DNA from: Candidatus Cloacimonas sp.
Lineage (GTDB): Bacteria > Cloacimonadota > Cloacimonadia > Cloacimonadales > Cloacimonadaceae
Direction of reading: 5' to 3'
Length of the DNA stretch: 64,000 nucleotides
NCBI GenBank assembly: GCA_039680785.1
Contig: JBDKSF010000025.1
Coordinates: 1-64,000, forward strand
Of the stretch, positions 7,971 to 28,029 are shown in pieces. Every line of letters begins with the position of its first letter. Position 1 is the first letter of the stretch. Position numbers and translations under genes: made by a program. The notes under the pieces are model-generated. The model worked only from the letters and a program-made list of their open reading frames with translations. It was not told the DNA's origin and did not search any database.

Positions 7971-8006
7971 AAAAAGTGGAAAAGTGGAAAGGTGGAAAAG
8001 TGAAAC
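7971..8006. repeat. Purine-rich minisatellite, inverted array 2
   Basis: AAAAAGTGGAAAAGTGGAAAGG-like units begin one base after the transcarboxylase gene stop and end in GTGAAAC. This is the reverse complement of the arrays at 491 and 8158, including the GTTTCAC leader. It is short, about 35 bp. No terminator hairpin separates it from the gene. Confidence 0.8.
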
Positions 8007-8157: not shown

Positions 8158-8360
8158 TGGGTTTCACTTTTCCACCTTTTCACCTTTCCACCCTTCCACT
8201 TTTTCACCCTTTCACTTTTCCACCCTTTCACCTTTCCACCTTTCCACTTTTTCACCCTTCCACCCTTCCACCTTTCCACTTTTCCACCTTTTCACCTTTC
8301 CACTTTTTCACCTTTCCACTTTTCCACCCTTCCACCCTTCCACCCTTTCACCCTTTCACC
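8158..8360. repeat. Pyrimidine-rich minisatellite, array 3, directly before pyrR
   Basis: About 200 bp consist of imperfect CTTTCCACC, CTTTTCACC and CCCTTCCACC units on the plus strand, preceded by the CTGGGTTTCAC leader. The array ends about 26 bp before the pyrR start codon; only CACACCACTTGTAGTT and the AGGAGG ribosome-binding site intervene. Length variation is likely, and it would change the pyrR leader. Open frames through it are low-complexity and rejected as genes. Confidence 0.9.
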
Positions 8361-15641: not shown

Positions 15642-15774
15642 AAAGTTTATTCCTTTCCTTTTTCGCTTTTCCCTCATTAGTTAAAGCTTCTAACTATGAA
15701 GCAAATAATTTGTCAATTTATTTGTTTTAAATTGTGGAATAAACTTTTTAGGAAGAATGATAGGGTTTCGTTCT

Positions 15775-16860
15775 CCTGATAGCCAAGTTATCAAGTTCCC
15801 TATAACTTATAGGTAACTGCATAAATATCTTGTTGTGGTTGACCAGGAGGTCAACCCTCCATTATTTCTATGCCGGATTAAAAACCCCATCGCTCAAATC
15901 TGTCGGCCTTTGAGTTAAAATCGGTTTTGTTTGTGATCTTCCCCATAATTTCATTCTTTTTTCCCATCTTTGAACAATGTCACTAATAATTCATAGAAAA
16001 GGCCGATTTTGACTTAAAGCCGACGAATCGTCAATTATAAAATACAATCCTTCTAATCCTAAAATCTTTGTTTCTAACATTTAATCTGTGAGAGAATATA
16101 TGAAGGAAGAACGACGGCCTCGTCGTTCACCTTACAACCAAATTATACAGTTTCCGCGAAAATTTATAATAGCTTGATAGTTTGTTTGTTGTGGTTGACC
16201 AGGAGGTCAACCCTCCATTATTTCTACGCCGGATTAAAAACTCGTCGTTCAAATCTGTAGGCCTTTGAGTTAAAATCGGTTTTGTTTGTGATCTTCCACA
16301 TAATATCATTCTTTTTTTCTATCTTTGAACAATGTCACTAATTATCTCATAGAAAAGGCCGATTTTGACCTAAAGCCGACGAATCGTCAGTTATAAAATA
16401 CAATCCTCTTAAAATCCTAAAATCCTTGTTTCTACTGATTAATCTATGAGAGAATATATAAAGGAAGAACCACTTCCTCGTCGTTCCCCTTACAACCAAA
16501 TTATCAAGTTTTCCATAACTTATAGGTAATTGCAAAAATATCTTGTTGTGGTTGACCAGGAGGTCAACCCTCCATTATTTCTACGCTGGGTTAAAACTCG
16601 TCGCTCAAATCTGTCGGCCTTTGAGTTAAAATCGGTTTTGTTTGTGATCTACCACATAATTTCATTCTTTTTTCTCATCTTTGAACAATGTCACTAATAA
16701 TCTCATAGAAAAGGCCGATTTTGACTTAAAGCTGACGAATAAAGGAAGAACGACGTCCTCGTCGTTCCCCTGACAACCGAGTTATCAAGTTTCCACTTAA
16801 TTATAGGTAGCAGTATAAATATCTTGTTGTGGTTGACGAGGACGTCAACACTCCATTATT
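15775..16860 (-). repeat. Tandem array of composite hairpin repeats, about 3.5 copies, inverted
   Basis: Units of about 357 bp carry hairpin 1 (GGTTGACC, loop AGGA, GGTCAACC) at 15837-15856, 16193-16212 and 16550-16569. The fourth at 16831-16850 has changed to GTTGACG/CGTCAAC. Hairpin 2 (GAACGACG/CGTCGTTC with a 4-nt loop) lies at 16109-16128 and 16748-16767; at 16467-16486 it is degenerate. Each full unit also holds a long imperfect inverted pair: TCGGCCTTTGAGTTAAAATC and, about 100 bp on, GGCCGATTTTGACTTAAAGC. The third unit lacks about 75 bp. Compared with the copies at 1, 31.3 and 63.1 kb, the array is in opposite orientation. No gene is present. Confidence 0.85.
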
Positions 16861-16945: not shown

Positions 16946-16998
16946 CGTTAGTATGTATCGTTCCTAACGGAACTATTTTCATTATATGTCTTTCTTTT

Positions 16999-17245
16999 CG
17001 AGGGGCTTACGCCACCATCGCTATCATTGTGTCGCCCTGAGGGGCTTTTTTGGAAGACGAGAGATAGAATAGTATTATCGTATCTTTCTCTTTTCGAGGG
17101 GCTTACGCCACCATCGCTATCATTGTGTCGCCCAGAGGGGCTTATTTTGAAGGCGAGAGTTAGAATAGTATTATCGTATCTTTCTCTTTTCGAGGGGCTT
17201 ACGCCACCATCGCTATCATTGTGTCGCCCTGAGGGGCTTATATTG
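16999..17245. repeat. 96-bp tandem repeat, about 2.6 copies
   Basis: Units start at 16999, 17095 and 17191 with CGAGGGGCTTACGCC. They contain ACCATCGCTATCATTGTG and end in a second GAGGGGCTT. Because 96 is 32 codons, a 103-codon minus-strand frame (16948-17259) stays open through it, with a repeating SPSGRHNDSDGGVSPSKR peptide. There is no ribosome-binding site or flanking unique domain, so I treat it as a structural repeat rather than a gene. Confidence 0.85.
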
Positions 17246-20567: not shown

Positions 20568-23330
20568 TTAGTAACGGTAGTCAATGCTTAAGCGAATAGT
20601 ATTTTCGCTATGTTCAACTCTTTGAAAATAAACGGGATCATCCAGCAAAGTAGGATCATCCGCAAGATTATAATTACGGATATTTATTTCTTTATCCTGA
20701 TAGGTCTTATTTTTAAACTTCAGGTTCAGATACATATTTGGGGAAATGCGACTGGTGAAGGCAACCCATGCTTTGGAACCTTTCTCACCCATAAAATCAA
20801 TTTCCAGATCTTCCCAATCCCAATGCGAAATTCCATGCCCAAACCAATATAGGAAAGAACCTTGCATTTCTAATGCTTTATTAAAATAGTGAGTATAATT
20901 AACCGCTATGTAGTCACCAATCATCAATGTCTGAGCCGCTGCCATAGAATTTTCGCCTTCCGTGGCAGGATAAGTTAAAGATGTATAGGGTGGATTCCAA
21001 ACCGTGTTATAACGATATTCAAATTCCAAGAAGTCACGATTGGAAAGGAAAGACCGAACTGCTAATGTATATTCGTTGGTCTTGGAAACACCGCGTTCAG
21101 CATCATCGTCATAACGATTAACTTGATTTTTATAACGCAACCGCAAACCCAGTTGATAGATAGGGCGAAATTCCAGTTCACTTTGAAATCTGGCGCTTCT
21201 GCGTCCGTCGGTTAATCGCTCCCAGAGGTCTAAATAGCTTCTGCCAATGGTGAAATAGCGATTGAATTTGTAGCGGGTTTCAAAATATACACCGCGTTCA
21301 GGTTGGGACTGATTTGAGTTTTGATATAGGTCTGCAATTGTAGGATTGGTTAAAGCATAAACATTTTTTTCCAAAATTGTATCTTCAAAACGCTGATGTT
21401 CCGAAAAGCTGTTGCTGTAAGGATTATCAAAATCCACATCAATATTGCGGAACAAAGTAATGAAATAGAGGTTTTCAAACAGCGTATGCGCAGACACCAG
21501 ATATGCCTTGGGGTCATCTCCCAATTTGAGGTCATCGCCTTCTACGGAAAGTTCTGCATATTCACCCTGGATGGAAGTGTTGCCAATCACGGTTTGACCA
21601 TCGAAACCAATCACTCTTCTATAATCTCGAGTGTAGCTATCCGTTTGAGTGCTATAGAGATTACTGATTTCCGCATTCATATTCTTTACCAACTTGGCAT
21701 AGTAATACGAATCCCTCAATACAGTAGGTAACAAATAATTATAACCGGGAACCACAAAATGGGCATCGTCATAAATGGATGTATAGGTTGTAAAACCAAG
21801 CTTTGTACCTAAAAAAGGATTTACCTGCAGATGCGTTCCCCACAATTTTTCCTGCAAAACATCTTTGCGGGTGGCAAGATTAATATAGTTCATTGCATAG
21901 GGGACGCCTGCAGAAATTTCATCATTAAACCATTCTTCTGCTTCCAGCATTGTGTCATCATCATAACGCAAAGTAGGATTAATAAGTGCGAAGACCTTGG
22001 TTTTATCTCCCTGAACAGCAGTTCCATCTTCATAATTATAGATATGCTGTCCGTTATCATTAAGATAATATTGCCTGCCATAAAAAGCGGAAGTTGTATC
22101 CCTATCAGTATAAATATCGTTACCGAGTTCATCTCTTTTAACTGCATAGCCATCGCTATCAATGTAAGTGAGAGCATCTTTATCGTCAACGGATACAAAA
22201 GCTGTAACTCCAAACAAGGGAGTAGTATATTCTACGGCTCCCCCTTTCAAGGAATTTTCTTGAGTTCTGGAAAGGTCTGGAGTGATGCCCAAAATTCTTT
22301 TGCTGAAGCCAAAACCGGTTTTGCGGGCACTGTAATAATCCGTATTTTCCATCACTAACCCTTCTCCAAAAGTGGCACGATAATTTCCGGCATAAACCTT
22401 CAAACGCGAGTTATATAAACCAGGCATTTCGTTATTTTCATAGCCGACATACCATTTGGAATCGGCTAAAAAGTCCTCTGCTTTTGTGTTGAGCAAGTCC
22501 TCTTCGCCTTTTGCGGAATAATGCATCAAACCCAGCTTATAGTTATTTCCATAGCGCATTCTAAGCTTTAACATAAGATCGGGATCAAGTTCATCCAAAC
22601 CAAAATAACCCCAGTAAGAATTGGTTTTTAAGTGCGGAACCACCACATTGGAAGCATTGTAGTCATTACGCAAAAAACTTTCATGCAACATATCATACTG
22701 CCCTTCTTCAAAATAGCGAGTATAATATAATAACGACGCATCACACATCAAACGGTTTTTTACCGGCGGTTCATTGTAATATACATAACTGCGCAAGTTC
22801 GTATAACCATAATAAGAAAGACCTTGAGTATTGCGTAAATCCCTTGTATCGGCAATAGTATCACCTTGAGCAACTCTTTTCAAAATGGCAACTGCATCAA
22901 TGCCAGAAACATTGGGCAAGCTCATAAAATCATCCAAGTGCATTTTGTTGACATTTTGAGGCGTCATTAAATAATCTTCCCAAACATCTGCCATTCCTTC
23001 AGAAGCGCCTTCATTACTATCCAGACGTTCCAGTAAATCTCTGATTTCATCTCTGCGAATGGCTGCTTCATCGGTTTCCACATATATGGAAACAGCTACT
23101 AAGGGTTTTAGCCGATCGAGCGTCGCTTGATCTATGGAAGGGATTTCTTTTAGCTCATAGATATTATCAAAGACCTTCACAAACTGCCGGTAGTCATAGA
23201 TATCCTGTGCTTGCTTTTCCGTTATGGGCAATTGATTTAAATCTGCCAAAGAAGCTGTGTTTAAATCTACCTTGGCAAATAAAAACGCTGCACCAAACAG
23301 AACGAAGAGCATTACTACAAATTTCTTCAT
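20568..23330 (-). CDS. Exported helix-hairpin-helix protein with large C-terminal beta-barrel-like region
   Basis: The 920-residue protein has a signal peptide ending near FAKVDLN. Residues 22-80 (VDLNTASLADLNQLP, then AQDIYDYRQ and LKEIPSI) form a ComEA-like helix-hairpin-helix DNA-binding module. A second hairpin region follows at about 130-180 (LDDFMSLPNVSGIDA). The remaining ~700 residues are rich in Tyr/Asn/Asp with alternating strands, and the protein ends in LSIDYRY with a C-terminal aromatic residue, as expected of an outer-membrane barrel. It is the first gene of a three-gene operon with a FadL/PorV-like barrel and a 5'-nucleotidase. Similar HhH-barrel proteins occur in Bacteroidetes-related genomes, but I know of no established function. 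DNA binding at the cell surface is inferred. Confidence 0.8.
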   Translation of the reverse strand: MKKFVVMLFVLFGAAFLFAKVDLNTASLADLNQLPITEKQAQDIYDYRQFVKVFDNIYELKEIPSIDQATLDRLKPLVAVSIYVETDEAAIRRDEIRDLLERLDSNEGASEGMADVWEDYLMTPQNVNKMHLDDFMSLPNVSGIDAVAILKRVAQGDTIADTRDLRNTQGLSYYGYTNLRSYVYYNEPPVKNRLMCDASLLYYTRYFEEGQYDMLHESFLRNDYNASNVVVPHLKTNSYWGYFGLDELDPDLMLKLRMRYGNNYKLGLMHYSAKGEEDLLNTKAEDFLADSKWYVGYENNEMPGLYNSRLKVYAGNYRATFGEGLVMENTDYYSARKTGFGFSKRILGITPDLSRTQENSLKGGAVEYTTPLFGVTAFVSVDDKDALTYIDSDGYAVKRDELGNDIYTDRDTTSAFYGRQYYLNDNGQHIYNYEDGTAVQGDKTKVFALINPTLRYDDDTMLEAEEWFNDEISAGVPYAMNYINLATRKDVLQEKLWGTHLQVNPFLGTKLGFTTYTSIYDDAHFVVPGYNYLLPTVLRDSYYYAKLVKNMNAEISNLYSTQTDSYTRDYRRVIGFDGQTVIGNTSIQGEYAELSVEGDDLKLGDDPKAYLVSAHTLFENLYFITLFRNIDVDFDNPYSNSFSEHQRFEDTILEKNVYALTNPTIADLYQNSNQSQPERGVYFETRYKFNRYFTIGRSYLDLWERLTDGRRSARFQSELEFRPIYQLGLRLRYKNQVNRYDDDAERGVSKTNEYTLAVRSFLSNRDFLEFEYRYNTVWNPPYTSLTYPATEGENSMAAAQTLMIGDYIAVNYTHYFNKALEMQGSFLYWFGHGISHWDWEDLEIDFMGEKGSKAWVAFTSRISPNMYLNLKFKNKTYQDKEINIRNYNLADDPTLLDDPVYFQRVEHSENTIRLSIDYRY

Positions 23331-23455: not shown

Positions 23456-24545
23456 GTTTTAACTCTAAACCAATTCTTTTTTTACTGCAACGAGATACAG
23501 ATAGCAACAGGTAATTTTGTTCTTGTTTCGATACTGACAAAGCTGAAGCCCTTGTTTGTTTTGACTCTAAACCGATTCTTTCTTCTACTGCAACGAGATT
23601 CAGATAGCAACAAGTAATTTTGTTCTTGTTTCGATACTGACAAAGCTGAAGCTCTCGTTTGTTTTGACTCTAAACCGATTCTTTCTTCTATTGCAACGAG
23701 ATACAGATAGCAACAAGTAATTTTGTTCTTGTTTCGATACTGACAAAGCTGAAGCTCGGTTTAGAGTTAAAATAAAACTTCTATTCCCTCTCTGAGTAGT
23801 TTTTGAACAGTTCATAATTTGGCTGACTGAAAATGAATTCTTGTTTTAACTCTAAACCGATTCTTCCTTCGGCTGCAACGAGATACAGATAGCAACAAGT
23901 AATTTTGTTCGTAGTTTGATTCTGACAACGCTGAAGCCCTCGTTTGTTTTGACTCTAAACCGATTCTTCCTTCGGCTGCAACGAGATACAGATAGCAACA
24001 AGTAATTTTGTTCTTGTTTCGATACTGACAAAGCTGAAGCTCGGTTTAGAGTTAAAATAAAACTTCTATTCCCTCTCTGAGTAGTTTTTGGACAGTTCGT
24101 AATTTGGCTGACTGAAAATGAATTCTTGTTTTAACTCTCAATTTTGAAATCTTAATACCAGCAAAAGTTTGACTCTTTAACCTGTAATTTTAGGGAAGTG
24201 GTTTTTTTGATGCCTTCGCAAAATTGAAAGTCAAAAGCAAGCATTTTGTTTTGACTCTAAACCGATTCTTTTTTTACTGCAACGAGATACAGATAGCAAC
24301 AAGTAATTTTGTTCTTGTTTCGATACTGACAAAGCTGAAGCTCGGTTTAGAGTTAAAATAAAACTTCTACTCCATCACAGCGTATTTTTTGAACAGGTTA
24401 TAATTTGGCTGACTGAAAATGAATTCTTGTTTTAACTCTCAATTTTGAAATCTTAATACCAGCAAAAGTTTGACTCTTTAACCTATAATTTTAGGGAAGT
24501 GGTTTTTTTGATGCCTTCGCAAAATTGAAAGTCAAAACAAGCTGT
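23456..24545. repeat. Mosaic of ~102-bp repeat units and two spacer modules
   Basis: Unit A (about 102 bp) starts GTTTT(G/A)ACTCTAAACCGA and includes GCAACGAGATACAGATAGC, AACAAGTAATTTTGTTCTTG (a small hairpin) and GATACTGACAAAGCTGAAGC. Copies begin at 23456, 23558, 23661, 23843, 23945 and 24248. After copies 3, 5 and 6 comes module B, opening CTCGGTTTAGAGTTAAAA, which is the reverse complement of the unit A start, so the last A of each group is closed by a 17-18 bp inverted repeat. Module C (AATTTTGAAATCTTAATACC to CAAAATTGAAAGTCAAAA) follows twice, near 24137 and 24437. It is not CRISPR: the spacers are also repeated. The region is otherwise gene-free. Confidence 0.85.
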
Positions 24546-24904: not shown

Positions 24905-24996
24905 AGAATTAGTATTTATAGGGACTCTGAAATGAACTTCGGTTAAGAATAAAAAAAATTTGAAATATAAGAAGAAGTATATCCAAGGAGGATATG

Positions 24997-27900
24997 ATGT
25001 ATAAGAAACTATTGATCTTATCAGTCATTTTATTGTGGGCTATAGTGTTAGTAGGAGCAACAATAACTTTGAATTATGTGGGAATTAAAGGACCGAGTAG
25101 TAATCCTGTAATTCCCGGGCAAACTGTCTATATAAAAGTAGAATATACTCTCAGTGGTTTTAATTCAGAATTTGGGATAGTAAATGGTGTTTGTGCCTCT
25201 ACTTCAGGTCCTTATGATAAAGCACGAATTTATTGGTATTCAAGTTCGGATGGAACTGGAAGTTATTTATCTTTCACTGATGTTACTGCAACTCAAATAA
25301 ACAGAACTGGAATAACAGATAATGCTTACACAGATGAAGTGCAAATTACTTTACCGACATATACAGGAGCTAATAGTTTTAAAATCAGGGTTAGAGTGTA
25401 TGGTGATGATGGAGAGGGAAATACTATAACATCCGGTTTAGTAATATCTACCGGCCATTTTACCGGTTATAGTGCCTATCTTCAAATAAATACAAATACT
25501 GCACCTTATGCTACAAATGTTATAATTACTAATCCGTTATATGCTAAGGTGGGGCAAACTATTTATGGCGATTATGATTATAATGATGACACATTTAATG
25601 AAGAAAGCGGAACCATTTTGCATTGGTTAAGAAGTGACAGTCAATCAGGAACTTATACTGAGATAGATGGAGCAACAAGTAAAACCTATACAGTTGTTCA
25701 AGATGATTTAGGAAAATATCTAAAATTTGAGGTTACTCCTAAAAATGGAGTAGAACCAGGAACCGGGGCTACTGTTCTAAGTGATCCGACAGGTCCGGTT
25801 ACTGGAACTCCGAGAATAGAATTCAATGCATCCTATAAAACAATAACAGAAACTACAGACAACGATGGATCTGTTAGTTCTGATACATACCTTAGGATAG
25901 ATGCTGTTAATACTTCTTTTAATACAGGAATTTCTGTCTCAGATATTATATCAGTGCAAAATCTGCCAGAGGGTCTTCACATAGCAAGTTTAGTTTGTGA
26001 AAATGTTTCATATATTGATGTTTATCTTTCTGGAAGAGCCACTTATCACGAATATGCAGCCATTGTAAGTAATTTTAAAATTACTGTTGATGATGCGAAA
26101 TTAGTTGGAGTTAGTGGAGATAAACAAACGACTAACAGTTGTACTATTAATTTTACCAACAATCCTCCTAAAAATTTAGCTTTAAATAGTGTAGGCAATA
26201 ACTATGTTAAAATAACCTGGGTAAAGCCGGATGGTTTGAAGAGTTCGGGAAGTGGTCTGCGGAATTTTTATATCTATCGTAATAATTCCTATTGGACGAG
26301 TGTTAGTCCTACTACTTATAGCTATACTGATAATAGTGTTTCTAATGGGACACAATATACATATAAGGTTATGGCAGAATATATTAACGGGACAGACGAG
26401 ACCACAGAAGATATAATTTTAGCAACACCACTGGCGATTACTGCATTTTCTTTCAGTTCTCCTTCTGCAACGGGGACAATTGATCATATCAATAAAACCA
26501 TCAAGGTAGTTGTCCCGAATGACACTAATGTTACTAACTTAGTTGCTAATTTTACAGCTCCCGGGGCAACTGTAAAGGTTGGAACAGCAACTCAGACCAG
26601 TGGCACAACTGCAAATAATTTCACTAATCCTGTAACCTATATTTTAACGACCAGTAGTGATGCTTCCACTTGTTCTTATGTAGTGACAGTTTATAAGATG
26701 TTAGCAACTCCTACAACACAAGATGGAAATATAACCACTTCCAGCATTCAAGCAAAGTGGGGTTCGGTTTCAGGTGTCTCAAATTATTTACTGGATGTTT
26801 CCACTAACAGCGGTTTTTCCAGTTTCCTTCCCGGTTATCACGATACGAGTATAACTTCTACTTCTTGCACTATTAATGGCCTGAACTATAATACAACCTA
26901 TTATTATCGGGTAAAGGCAGTTGCCAGTGATCCGGACTTGAATAGTAATTATTCTACTACTAAATCAGTTACAACTAACAATGTTTCCGCAGGCACAGGT
27001 AGCACAGAAATCAATAGCAGTGAGGAAACCACAATAAATGTAGGGGATTATGTTTCCGGGCACGGAACTGTTACTCCTACTGTGAAAGTGCATCCTACCA
27101 GTTTTAGTCCTTCTGACAATGATATCATTAATGTTTCAATGGGTTATGGAACAGTTGTCCCTCAAGGTTTAATCTATACACTTGCCTTTGCTAACCATAC
27201 TATTGGCAACGGAACTTTTACTCTTTCCTATTCTGGATTGTATTATGACCCTAAAGATATTGGTTATATCTTAGATGACGGAGAATTGCATTCAATAGGC
27301 GTGTTAGGTGTTAATACCACAAATAAGACCATTACTTTTACTATGAGCGGATTAACCAAAGGTAGCAAATCCGCACATACACTAAAAATAATTACCAATG
27401 ATGGCAGCGATCAGACCCTTCCCGTTGTTCTTTCCTCTTTTACAGCCACTTTAATGGTTCAGGGTAAAGTGCGTCTGGATTGGGTAACTCAATCGGCATC
27501 AGGTTTAACTGGCTTTAGAGTTTTGCGCAATACTGTGGCTGAAGTTTCTTCTGCCGTAGTGGTAAGTTCTTTAATTGAGGCAAATAATACTTCCACAGCT
27601 GTTTCCTATTCCTTTATTGATAATGAAATTCCCTGCAACGGCACTTATTATTACTGGCTACAGATTGAGGAGCAAGATGGCTATGTATCTTATTCTGCCT
27701 CTGCTGCAGTGGAAGTGACCAATGGCGATAATCCCGATATCCCAATTCCGCTCATCACGGCTTTAAATAAACCTTTCCCCAATCCTTTCAATCCTTCTTT
27801 GACCATTCCTTTTGATCTTAGCAAGGATGGCAGGGTAACGATTAAAATTTACAATTTGAAAGGTCAGCTGATTAAGAACCTGGTAGATGAAGATAAGAAG

Positions 27901-28029
27901 GCATCTAACTATCGCATTGTTTGGGATGGAAAAGACAATAGCGGGCACATTGTTTCTGCCGGAACTTATCTTGTGCGGATGAATGCCACCGATTATCAGT
28001 CCTCTTGTAAAATTGTAATGGTTAAATAA
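24997..28029 (+). CDS. Large secreted fibronectin type III protein with FlgD/T9SS-like C-terminal sorting domain
   Basis: The ~1010-residue surface or extracellular protein has an N-terminal signal peptide (KKLLILSVILLWAIVLVGA). Ig-like and fibronectin type III modules are recognisable at about residues 385-475 (KNLALNSVGNNYVKITWVKP) and 565-660 (IQAKWGSVSGVSNYLLDVS). A later module near residue 810 opens LPVVLSSFTA. The last ~85 residues are a FlgD-Ig-like sorting domain: PFPNPFNPS, IYNLKGQLI, VWDGKDNSG, SAGTYLVRM. I prefer the second of two adjacent ATGs (24997; the first is 24994), because GGAGG lies only 2 nt from the first. No catalytic domain was recognised. Adhesion or matrix function is inferred. 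Confidence 0.85.
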   Translation: MYKKLLILSVILLWAIVLVGATITLNYVGIKGPSSNPVIPGQTVYIKVEYTLSGFNSEFGIVNGVCASTSGPYDKARIYWYSSSDGTGSYLSFTDVTATQINRTGITDNAYTDEVQITLPTYTGANSFKIRVRVYGDDGEGNTITSGLVISTGHFTGYSAYLQINTNTAPYATNVIITNPLYAKVGQTIYGDYDYNDDTFNEESGTILHWLRSDSQSGTYTEIDGATSKTYTVVQDDLGKYLKFEVTPKNGVEPGTGATVLSDPTGPVTGTPRIEFNASYKTITETTDNDGSVSSDTYLRIDAVNTSFNTGISVSDIISVQNLPEGLHIASLVCENVSYIDVYLSGRATYHEYAAIVSNFKITVDDAKLVGVSGDKQTTNSCTINFTNNPPKNLALNSVGNNYVKITWVKPDGLKSSGSGLRNFYIYRNNSYWTSVSPTTYSYTDNSVSNGTQYTYKVMAEYINGTDETTEDIILATPLAITAFSFSSPSATGTIDHINKTIKVVVPNDTNVTNLVANFTAPGATVKVGTATQTSGTTANNFTNPVTYILTTSSDASTCSYVVTVYKMLATPTTQDGNITTSSIQAKWGSVSGVSNYLLDVSTNSGFSSFLPGYHDTSITSTSCTINGLNYNTTYYYRVKAVASDPDLNSNYSTTKSVTTNNVSAGTGSTEINSSEETTINVGDYVSGHGTVTPTVKVHPTSFSPSDNDIINVSMGYGTVVPQGLIYTLAFANHTIGNGTFTLSYSGLYYDPKDIGYILDDGELHSIGVLGVNTTNKTITFTMSGLTKGSKSAHTLKIITNDGSDQTLPVVLSSFTATLMVQGKVRLDWVTQSASGLTGFRVLRNTVAEVSSAVVVSSLIEANNTSTAVSYSFIDNEIPCNGTYYYWLQIEEQDGYVSYSASAAVEVTNGDNPDIPIPLITALNKPFPNPFNPSLTIPFDLSKDGRVTIKIYNLKGQLIKNLVDEDKKASNYRIVWDGKDNSGHIVSAGTYLVRMNATDYQSSCKIVMVK

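Follow-up and report, generated by a model that had tools for sequence, protein, structure and literature searches.

Positions 23456-24545 of the window (the whole stretch of 64,000 nucleotides that was analysed) are flanked by a minus-strand gene of 920 aa (20568-23330) and a plus-strand gene of 1011 aa (24994-28029); this 1.1-kb array is thus intergenic, and the description of it as otherwise empty DNA in the original prediction was correct. It consists of five intact imperfect palindromes, three of type A and two of type C, together with three truncated A copies. The A copies start at 23457, 23559, 23662, 23844, 23947, and 24249 and form groups of three, two, and one, each closed by CTCGGTTTAGAGTTAAAA (at 23755, 24040, and 24341), in agreement with the six units and closing modules that had been predicted. 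Module C, which has terminal inverted repeats, occupies 24129-24236 and 24430-24537; it had been recognised as occurring twice with inverted ends, but its arms (CTTGTTTTAACTCTCAATTTTG / CAAAATTGAAAGTCAAAACAAG) are longer than was then supposed. The features are as follows:

23456..23558, plus strand: truncated A copy 1, a C-type head TTTTAACTC joined to A interior, without 3' arm
23559..23661, plus strand: truncated A copy 2, in tandem with a 103 bp period, without 3' arm
23663..23771, plus strand: complete A element, 109 nt, TTTGACTC...GAGTTAAA, exact signature match
23772..23840, no strand: A-to-C linker, first copy, as compared with the linker at 24057-24129; the C expected after it is absent
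23844..23946, plus strand: truncated A copy 4, with A interior fused to a C-type head (TTTTAACTC)
23948..24056, plus strand: complete A element, 109 nt, exact signature match
24057..24129, no strand: A-to-C linker, 73 nt
24130..24235, minus strand: complete C element, 106 nt, with the same terminal signature on the minus strand as in A
24250..24357, plus strand: complete A element, 108 nt, exact signature match, starting 14 nt past C
24358..24430, no strand: A-to-C linker, 73 nt
24431..24536, minus strand: complete C element, 106 nt, exact signature match

The plan of the unit is A, then 73 nt, then C, with C reversed, and the last two A-C units form a tandem repeat whose period is 301 bp. What had been taken for a separate module, "B", is really made up of the 3' arm of A and the 73-nt linker between A and C, and the C expected after the first A group is absent. 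Complete A hairpins measure 108-109 nt and complete C hairpins 106 nt. Read on the plus strand, A runs from TTTGACTC to GAGTTAAA, and C, read on the minus strand, runs from TTTGACTT to GAGTTAAA; the ends common to A and (on the opposite strand) C can therefore be written 5'-TTTGACTY-stem-loop-stem'-GAGTTAAA-3'. An exact search of the window for TTTGACTY-N-GAGTTAAA gave five matches, which are the five complete elements, with 0.01 expected by chance. A and C are elements of one kind. The last A unit with its "B" did fold far better than shuffled sequences, as predicted (DNA z -3.3, RNA z -4.2); the internal AACAAG/CTTGTT hairpin predicted along with it was missing from a consensus fold derived for 46 A elements in four genomes.

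The signature was counted, with the reversed pattern as control, in 125 genomes of the phylum Cloacimonadota, among which the window's genome is G000. Twelve genomes of the window's family contained about 2-60 exact matches per genome, whereas the reversed pattern gave 0-1 per genome; the remaining families of the phylum gave counts at control level, and in the census the signature was absent from some genomes of the window's family, for example G003. With a gap of 76-106 nt the counts were 60 in G008, 37 in G000, 34 in G001, 17 in G007, and 16 in G073; with a gap of 45-75 nt they were 24 in G016, 15 in G006, 13 in G004, and 9 in G017. Element sizes fell into classes of 71-74 and 103-111 nt, with a few outliers. 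The elements of the array are dispersed: G000 had 36 matches, and there were many in both G001 and G008, so the search of this and related genomes that had been suggested did not find the modules confined to a single place. Nearly all elements (195 of 197) lay outside ORFs of at least 150 aa, and the adjoining genes showed no single arrangement. Neighbouring elements were predominantly arranged 3' to 3', and within some genomes the linker of such a pair was roughly constant in length (44-46 nt in 11 of 11 3'-3' pairs in G016); in the arrays of G008, 5'-to-5' gaps were 18-19 nt in most units.

Two of these genomes gave further observations. In G008 a cluster of approximately 35-40 A and C elements extends over 45 kb around a RAYT gene (loci L015-L017, G008:C1:625767-670504); it lies near genes of large secreted proteins, and the part that is repeated there is the 3' end of A, not its start. 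In G016 element pairs stand beside GTGGG-tagged palindromes resembling canonical REPs (L146 900-1138, and L145), and pairs also adjoin another repeat, about 140-235 bp long, that is present in dozens of copies.

Imperfect inverted repeats roughly 100 nt in length, with unlike interiors and common end boxes and forming long arrays in G008, recall the attC-like sites of an integron cassette array. However, no integron integrase was found, since TIGR02249 gave only Xer-level matches, elsewhere (the best at 87 bits against a cut-off of 265); there were no evident gene cassettes between the units, and the elements occurred in both orientations. The integron reading is largely refuted, and we assign it next to no probability.

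More than 20 stem families were found whose arms are kept complementary, ranging over AAAAAAAGCC/GGCTTTTTTT, ATAATTCTGC/GCAGAATTAT, and TAAACCGACC/GCTCGGTTTA. Among 66 distinct arm pairs, an average of 8.65 of the ten stem positions inside the fixed boxes were paired, as against 5.08 for crossed arms; the pairing total was 571, as against 345±15 for permuted arms with a maximum of 405 in 2000 permutations, these counts being uncorrected for relatedness. Because so many unlike stems were involved, shared descent is an unlikely cause of the pairing. Strong stem covariation, together with a wobble that is compatible with G.U, an intergenic position, and the good folding of the last A unit as RNA, would also be expected of structured RNAs or RNA-level regulatory hairpins (attenuators or mRNA stabilisers) selected for their RNA fold. 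Nothing in Rfam matched at or above the gathering score, however, the only hit being a chance one to mir-3119; elements stand in both orientations within one array, the neighbouring genes follow no single arrangement, and selection at the RNA level leaves unexplained the association with a transposase gene described below. With no Rfam match and elements in both orientations, the structured RNA that had been put forward as one reading of the array is without specific support, and we regard it as improbable; the elements may have taken on a secondary role as RNA after insertion.

The fourth base pair of the basal stem is G.T, and it was kept in at least 96% of copies: in 170 of 172 elements at the loci compared and in 45 of 46 A elements from four genomes. 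When the pattern also admitted G-C and A-T, and genomes carrying each size class were searched with it, 244 of 255 matches genome-wide had the G.T form, in which the right box begins with G. The asymmetry singles out one of the two strands. By analogy with the REPs of E. coli, in which conserved stem mismatches are needed for activity and single-stranded REP is processed while its complement is not (PMC8266576), the wobble may serve to discriminate between strands. As judged by DNA folding energy, the canonical strand folded better in 11 of 12 elements of the short class, a clear difference, and in 9 of 12 A elements, a lesser one; for C elements, which fold weakly as DNA (mean z -1.7), it did not clearly do so.

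Inside the largest element cluster of G008 sits a gene (633297-633875) whose product matched the profiles Y1_Tnp (PF01797, 5.8e-10) and NCBIfam REP_Tyr_transpos (3.6e-16, at 59.4 bits below the 80-bit cut-off), and whose nearest PDB chain was TnpArep 4er8, at an E value of 0.015 only. An AlphaFold model of this RAYT from two sequences had a mean pLDDT of 39.5, so the predicted structure was useless and the assignment rests on sequence, in which the HUH (NHFH) and Y...NP motifs are intact. Relatives of the G008 RAYT were 88% identical in G001, 65% in G015, 62% in G004, 49% in G017, and 94% on contig L198, and in all six contigs signature elements lay among or beside the RAYT gene. In G008, G001, L198, G004, and G017 they lay on both sides of it in inverted orientation; in G015, where each box carries one substitution, they lay on one side because the contig ends. 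The elements in G004 have the boxes of A and C and stems unlike either. The RAYTs that bear the signature form one clade, with support of 100/99, and beside more distant RAYTs the strict signature was found in 0 of 25 cases; the flanking instances are partly non-independent, coming from one clade in one family. Between G008, G001, and L198 the dN/dS of the RAYT was 0.07-0.09, and the gene is under purifying selection. Contig L198 (JAKQKB010000053.1), which carries the 94% identical RAYT with A/C elements, has been assigned to a Bacteroidota MAG, through either mis-binning or transfer.

A RAYT of the signature clade was not found in the assembly of the window's genome, in G016, or in G005, all of which contain elements, and none was seen in G072 or G073, where elements are present too. 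The window's assembly consists of 122 contigs, several of which end inside A elements; the elements of the window are either orphaned or their RAYT was lost in assembly, and because no cognate RAYT was found in this fragmented assembly we infer rather than observe mobilisation in this genome. The only RAYT found there, G000:C77:15886-16167, belongs to another RAYT clade; as a candidate for the cognate enzyme it was rejected, since its flanks carry a different repeat family, GTACCGGCGC. A tandem of a repeat of the GTACCGGCGCTCGC... type occurs in the window at 145-366, and members of this family also flank the same RAYT.

Comparison with related genomes bore on the history of the array. In G008 the homologue of the window's left gene is 83% identical, the next gene is the homologue of the right-hand gene, and no element lies between them; this empty orthologous site gives no exact boundary. 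In G001, where the left gene is 94% identical, an array starts from the matching place but begins with C. The first C of the window is kept as a head only, TTTTAACTCT, fused to A interior, and the fusion is found again at 23844; it is what recombination between shared boxes would leave. Tandem A units join at GAAGCTC/G, a CTCG microhomology, and judging from these joints the tandem A copies look like secondary slippage. A second apparent empty site, in G016 as compared with G022 and G027, was rejected: the flanks match different contigs, and the element pair adjoins other repeats. Neutral local tandem duplication of meaningless sequence would account for the 102/103-bp and 301-bp tandems, which are real, and for the CTCG microhomology at their joints. 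It accounts only for the tandem growth of A, however, and as a full explanation it was refuted by the dispersal of copies in this and related genomes, by the more than 20 paired stem families, and by the conserved ends; we consider it very improbable.

At single elements there was no target-site duplication, direct repeats of at least 5 nt being present in 12 cases with 13.2 expected; a small excess of direct repeats among element pairs may come from tandem arrays. This bears on the possibility that the elements are classical MITEs, whose terminal inverted repeats are cut as duplex by a DDE transposase acting in trans, as their terminal inverted repeats, their size of about 110 bp, and their dispersed intergenic copies might suggest. 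Besides lacking the duplication, the elements have ends that, in at least 96% of copies, differ at one fixed base (G versus A); repeats recognised as duplex would not need such a difference, and the transposase found among the elements is Y1, not DDE. We therefore judge MITEs to be an unlikely explanation.

The array is probably a mosaic of two non-autonomous palindromic families, A and C, of a REP/REPIN/BIME-like kind and moved by a RAYT. The individual elements are imperfect hairpins; their ends are fixed, their G.T is conserved, and their inner stem varies between species but stays complementary. The dispersed copies, the empty orthologous site, and the cognate transposase flanked by elements in other genomes bear out the original suggestion of a non-autonomous mobile element; it is from anatomy that we infer mobilisation. 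We propose that the RAYT, which as an HUH/Y1 enzyme belongs to the IS200/IS605 superfamily, would recognise one folded single strand, that the asymmetric basal stem would tell the strands apart, and that the enzyme would cut and join at the conserved box, so that the pair would spread in trans. Later events would account for the tandem repetition of A at 102 bp and for the absent C copies, namely slippage at CTCG and recombination between the TTTTRACTC boxes that the elements share.

The earlier statement that no standard feature explains the array was too strong, because its layout is that of RAYT-associated palindromes (REP/BIME), although of an atypical class: the RAYT-REP layout is known, and the atypical hairpin class is the unusual part. 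Like the REP/BIME/REPIN systems with their RAYTs (TnpA_REP; the y-z BIMEs of E. coli, Pseudomonas REPINs, and Stenotrophomonas REPs), the elements are multi-copy intergenic imperfect palindromes in pairs and in alternating orientation (PMC2817692, PMC3116915, PMC8266576); in both cases a conserved Y1 RAYT is flanked by its own repeats, one repeat family to each RAYT, the stem has a conserved non-Watson-Crick feature, and mosaic arrays are formed. Also known are REP dimers whose spacers measure 20-100 bp (PMC3733652). In contrast to REPs, the Cloacimonadaceae elements are without the GT[AG]G foot, no constant GTAG or GTGG being present in their flanks or ends, and they are 71-111 nt long, as against approximately 21-65 nt for REPs (PMC6006769); because both foot and size fail, we did not file the A and C elements as canonical REPs. 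They differ further in having a long AT-rich basal stem with a loop of 30-70 nt, an invariant box (TTTGACTY/GAGTTAAA) that lies inside the stem and includes the G.T wobble, and a pair that is a heterodimer of two unlike stem families.

Atypical hairpins flank RAYTs of subclass 2.6, mostly from Bacteroidetes, and of class 3, mostly from Planctomycetes, Acidobacteria, and Proteobacteria, and none were found for subclasses 2.1 and 2.3 (PMC6006769). The present elements resemble those of subclass 2.6 and class 3, compared by description only, in that a RAYT is flanked by multi-copy hairpins without GT[AG]G; the motifs of the Cloacimonadaceae RAYT (NHFH, W(E/Q)YSN, and YIH(A/G)NP) match no row of the published table exactly (PMC6006769). 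In the literature searched, outside which most subscription papers lay, no description of repeats or RAYTs in Cloacimonadota was found. With IS200/IS605 elements (IS608, ISDra2) the system shares the HUH/Y1 superfamily, hairpin-forming ends, and the lack of target duplication; unlike them, it has a transposase that is not present in multiple copies and elements that contain no gene. The BOX elements of Streptococcus pneumoniae are likewise modular repeats with a variable number of an internal unit; we know of no sequence or enzyme that they share with A and C, and take them as look-alikes only.

We rate as about an even chance the broader proposal that these elements represent an undescribed RAYT-repeat class in Cloacimonadaceae, in which a fixed 8-nt box in the basal stem of a long hairpin would be what the transposase recognises, the strand would be chosen by an invariant G.T instead of a GTAG foot, inner stems and loops could diverge, and many coexisting stem families would be moved by one enzyme as 3'-to-3' heterodimers. 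Studies of how a RAYT recognises its repeats, and of whether it really moves them, have been confined almost entirely to REPs of the GTAG type, and both questions are open in the field; many stem families with one fixed box and one wobble constitute a natural experiment, setting what the enzyme needs against what can vary. The signature also provides a simple finder for such elements in other genomes, and in metagenome assemblies of Cloacimonadota contigs break at arrays of this kind.

Other repeats were noted in the window. At 15768-16740 there is a 356-bp tandem of 2.7 copies in which the boxes of A and C are turned inside out (GTCGGCCTTTGAGTTAAAATCGG...CCGATTTTGACTTAAAGCCGAC); its stem recurs in elements of 73-80 nt with the usual box order (G000:C10:26364 and 26534, and two copies on C115), and therefore it may represent a third stem family. 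A 96-bp tandem, GAGGGGCTTACGCCACCATCGCTATCATTGTGTCGCCC, occupies 16993-17245, and a sequence closely similar to it is present immediately upstream of the G008 array (L015 10600-10750). Arrays of 8-bp units (CACTTTTC / AAAAGTGG / CACCTTTC) are present at 497-589, 7972-8002, and 8165-8360, and similar AAAAGTGG arrays adjoin the RAYT on G000:C77 (L067 6580-6670).
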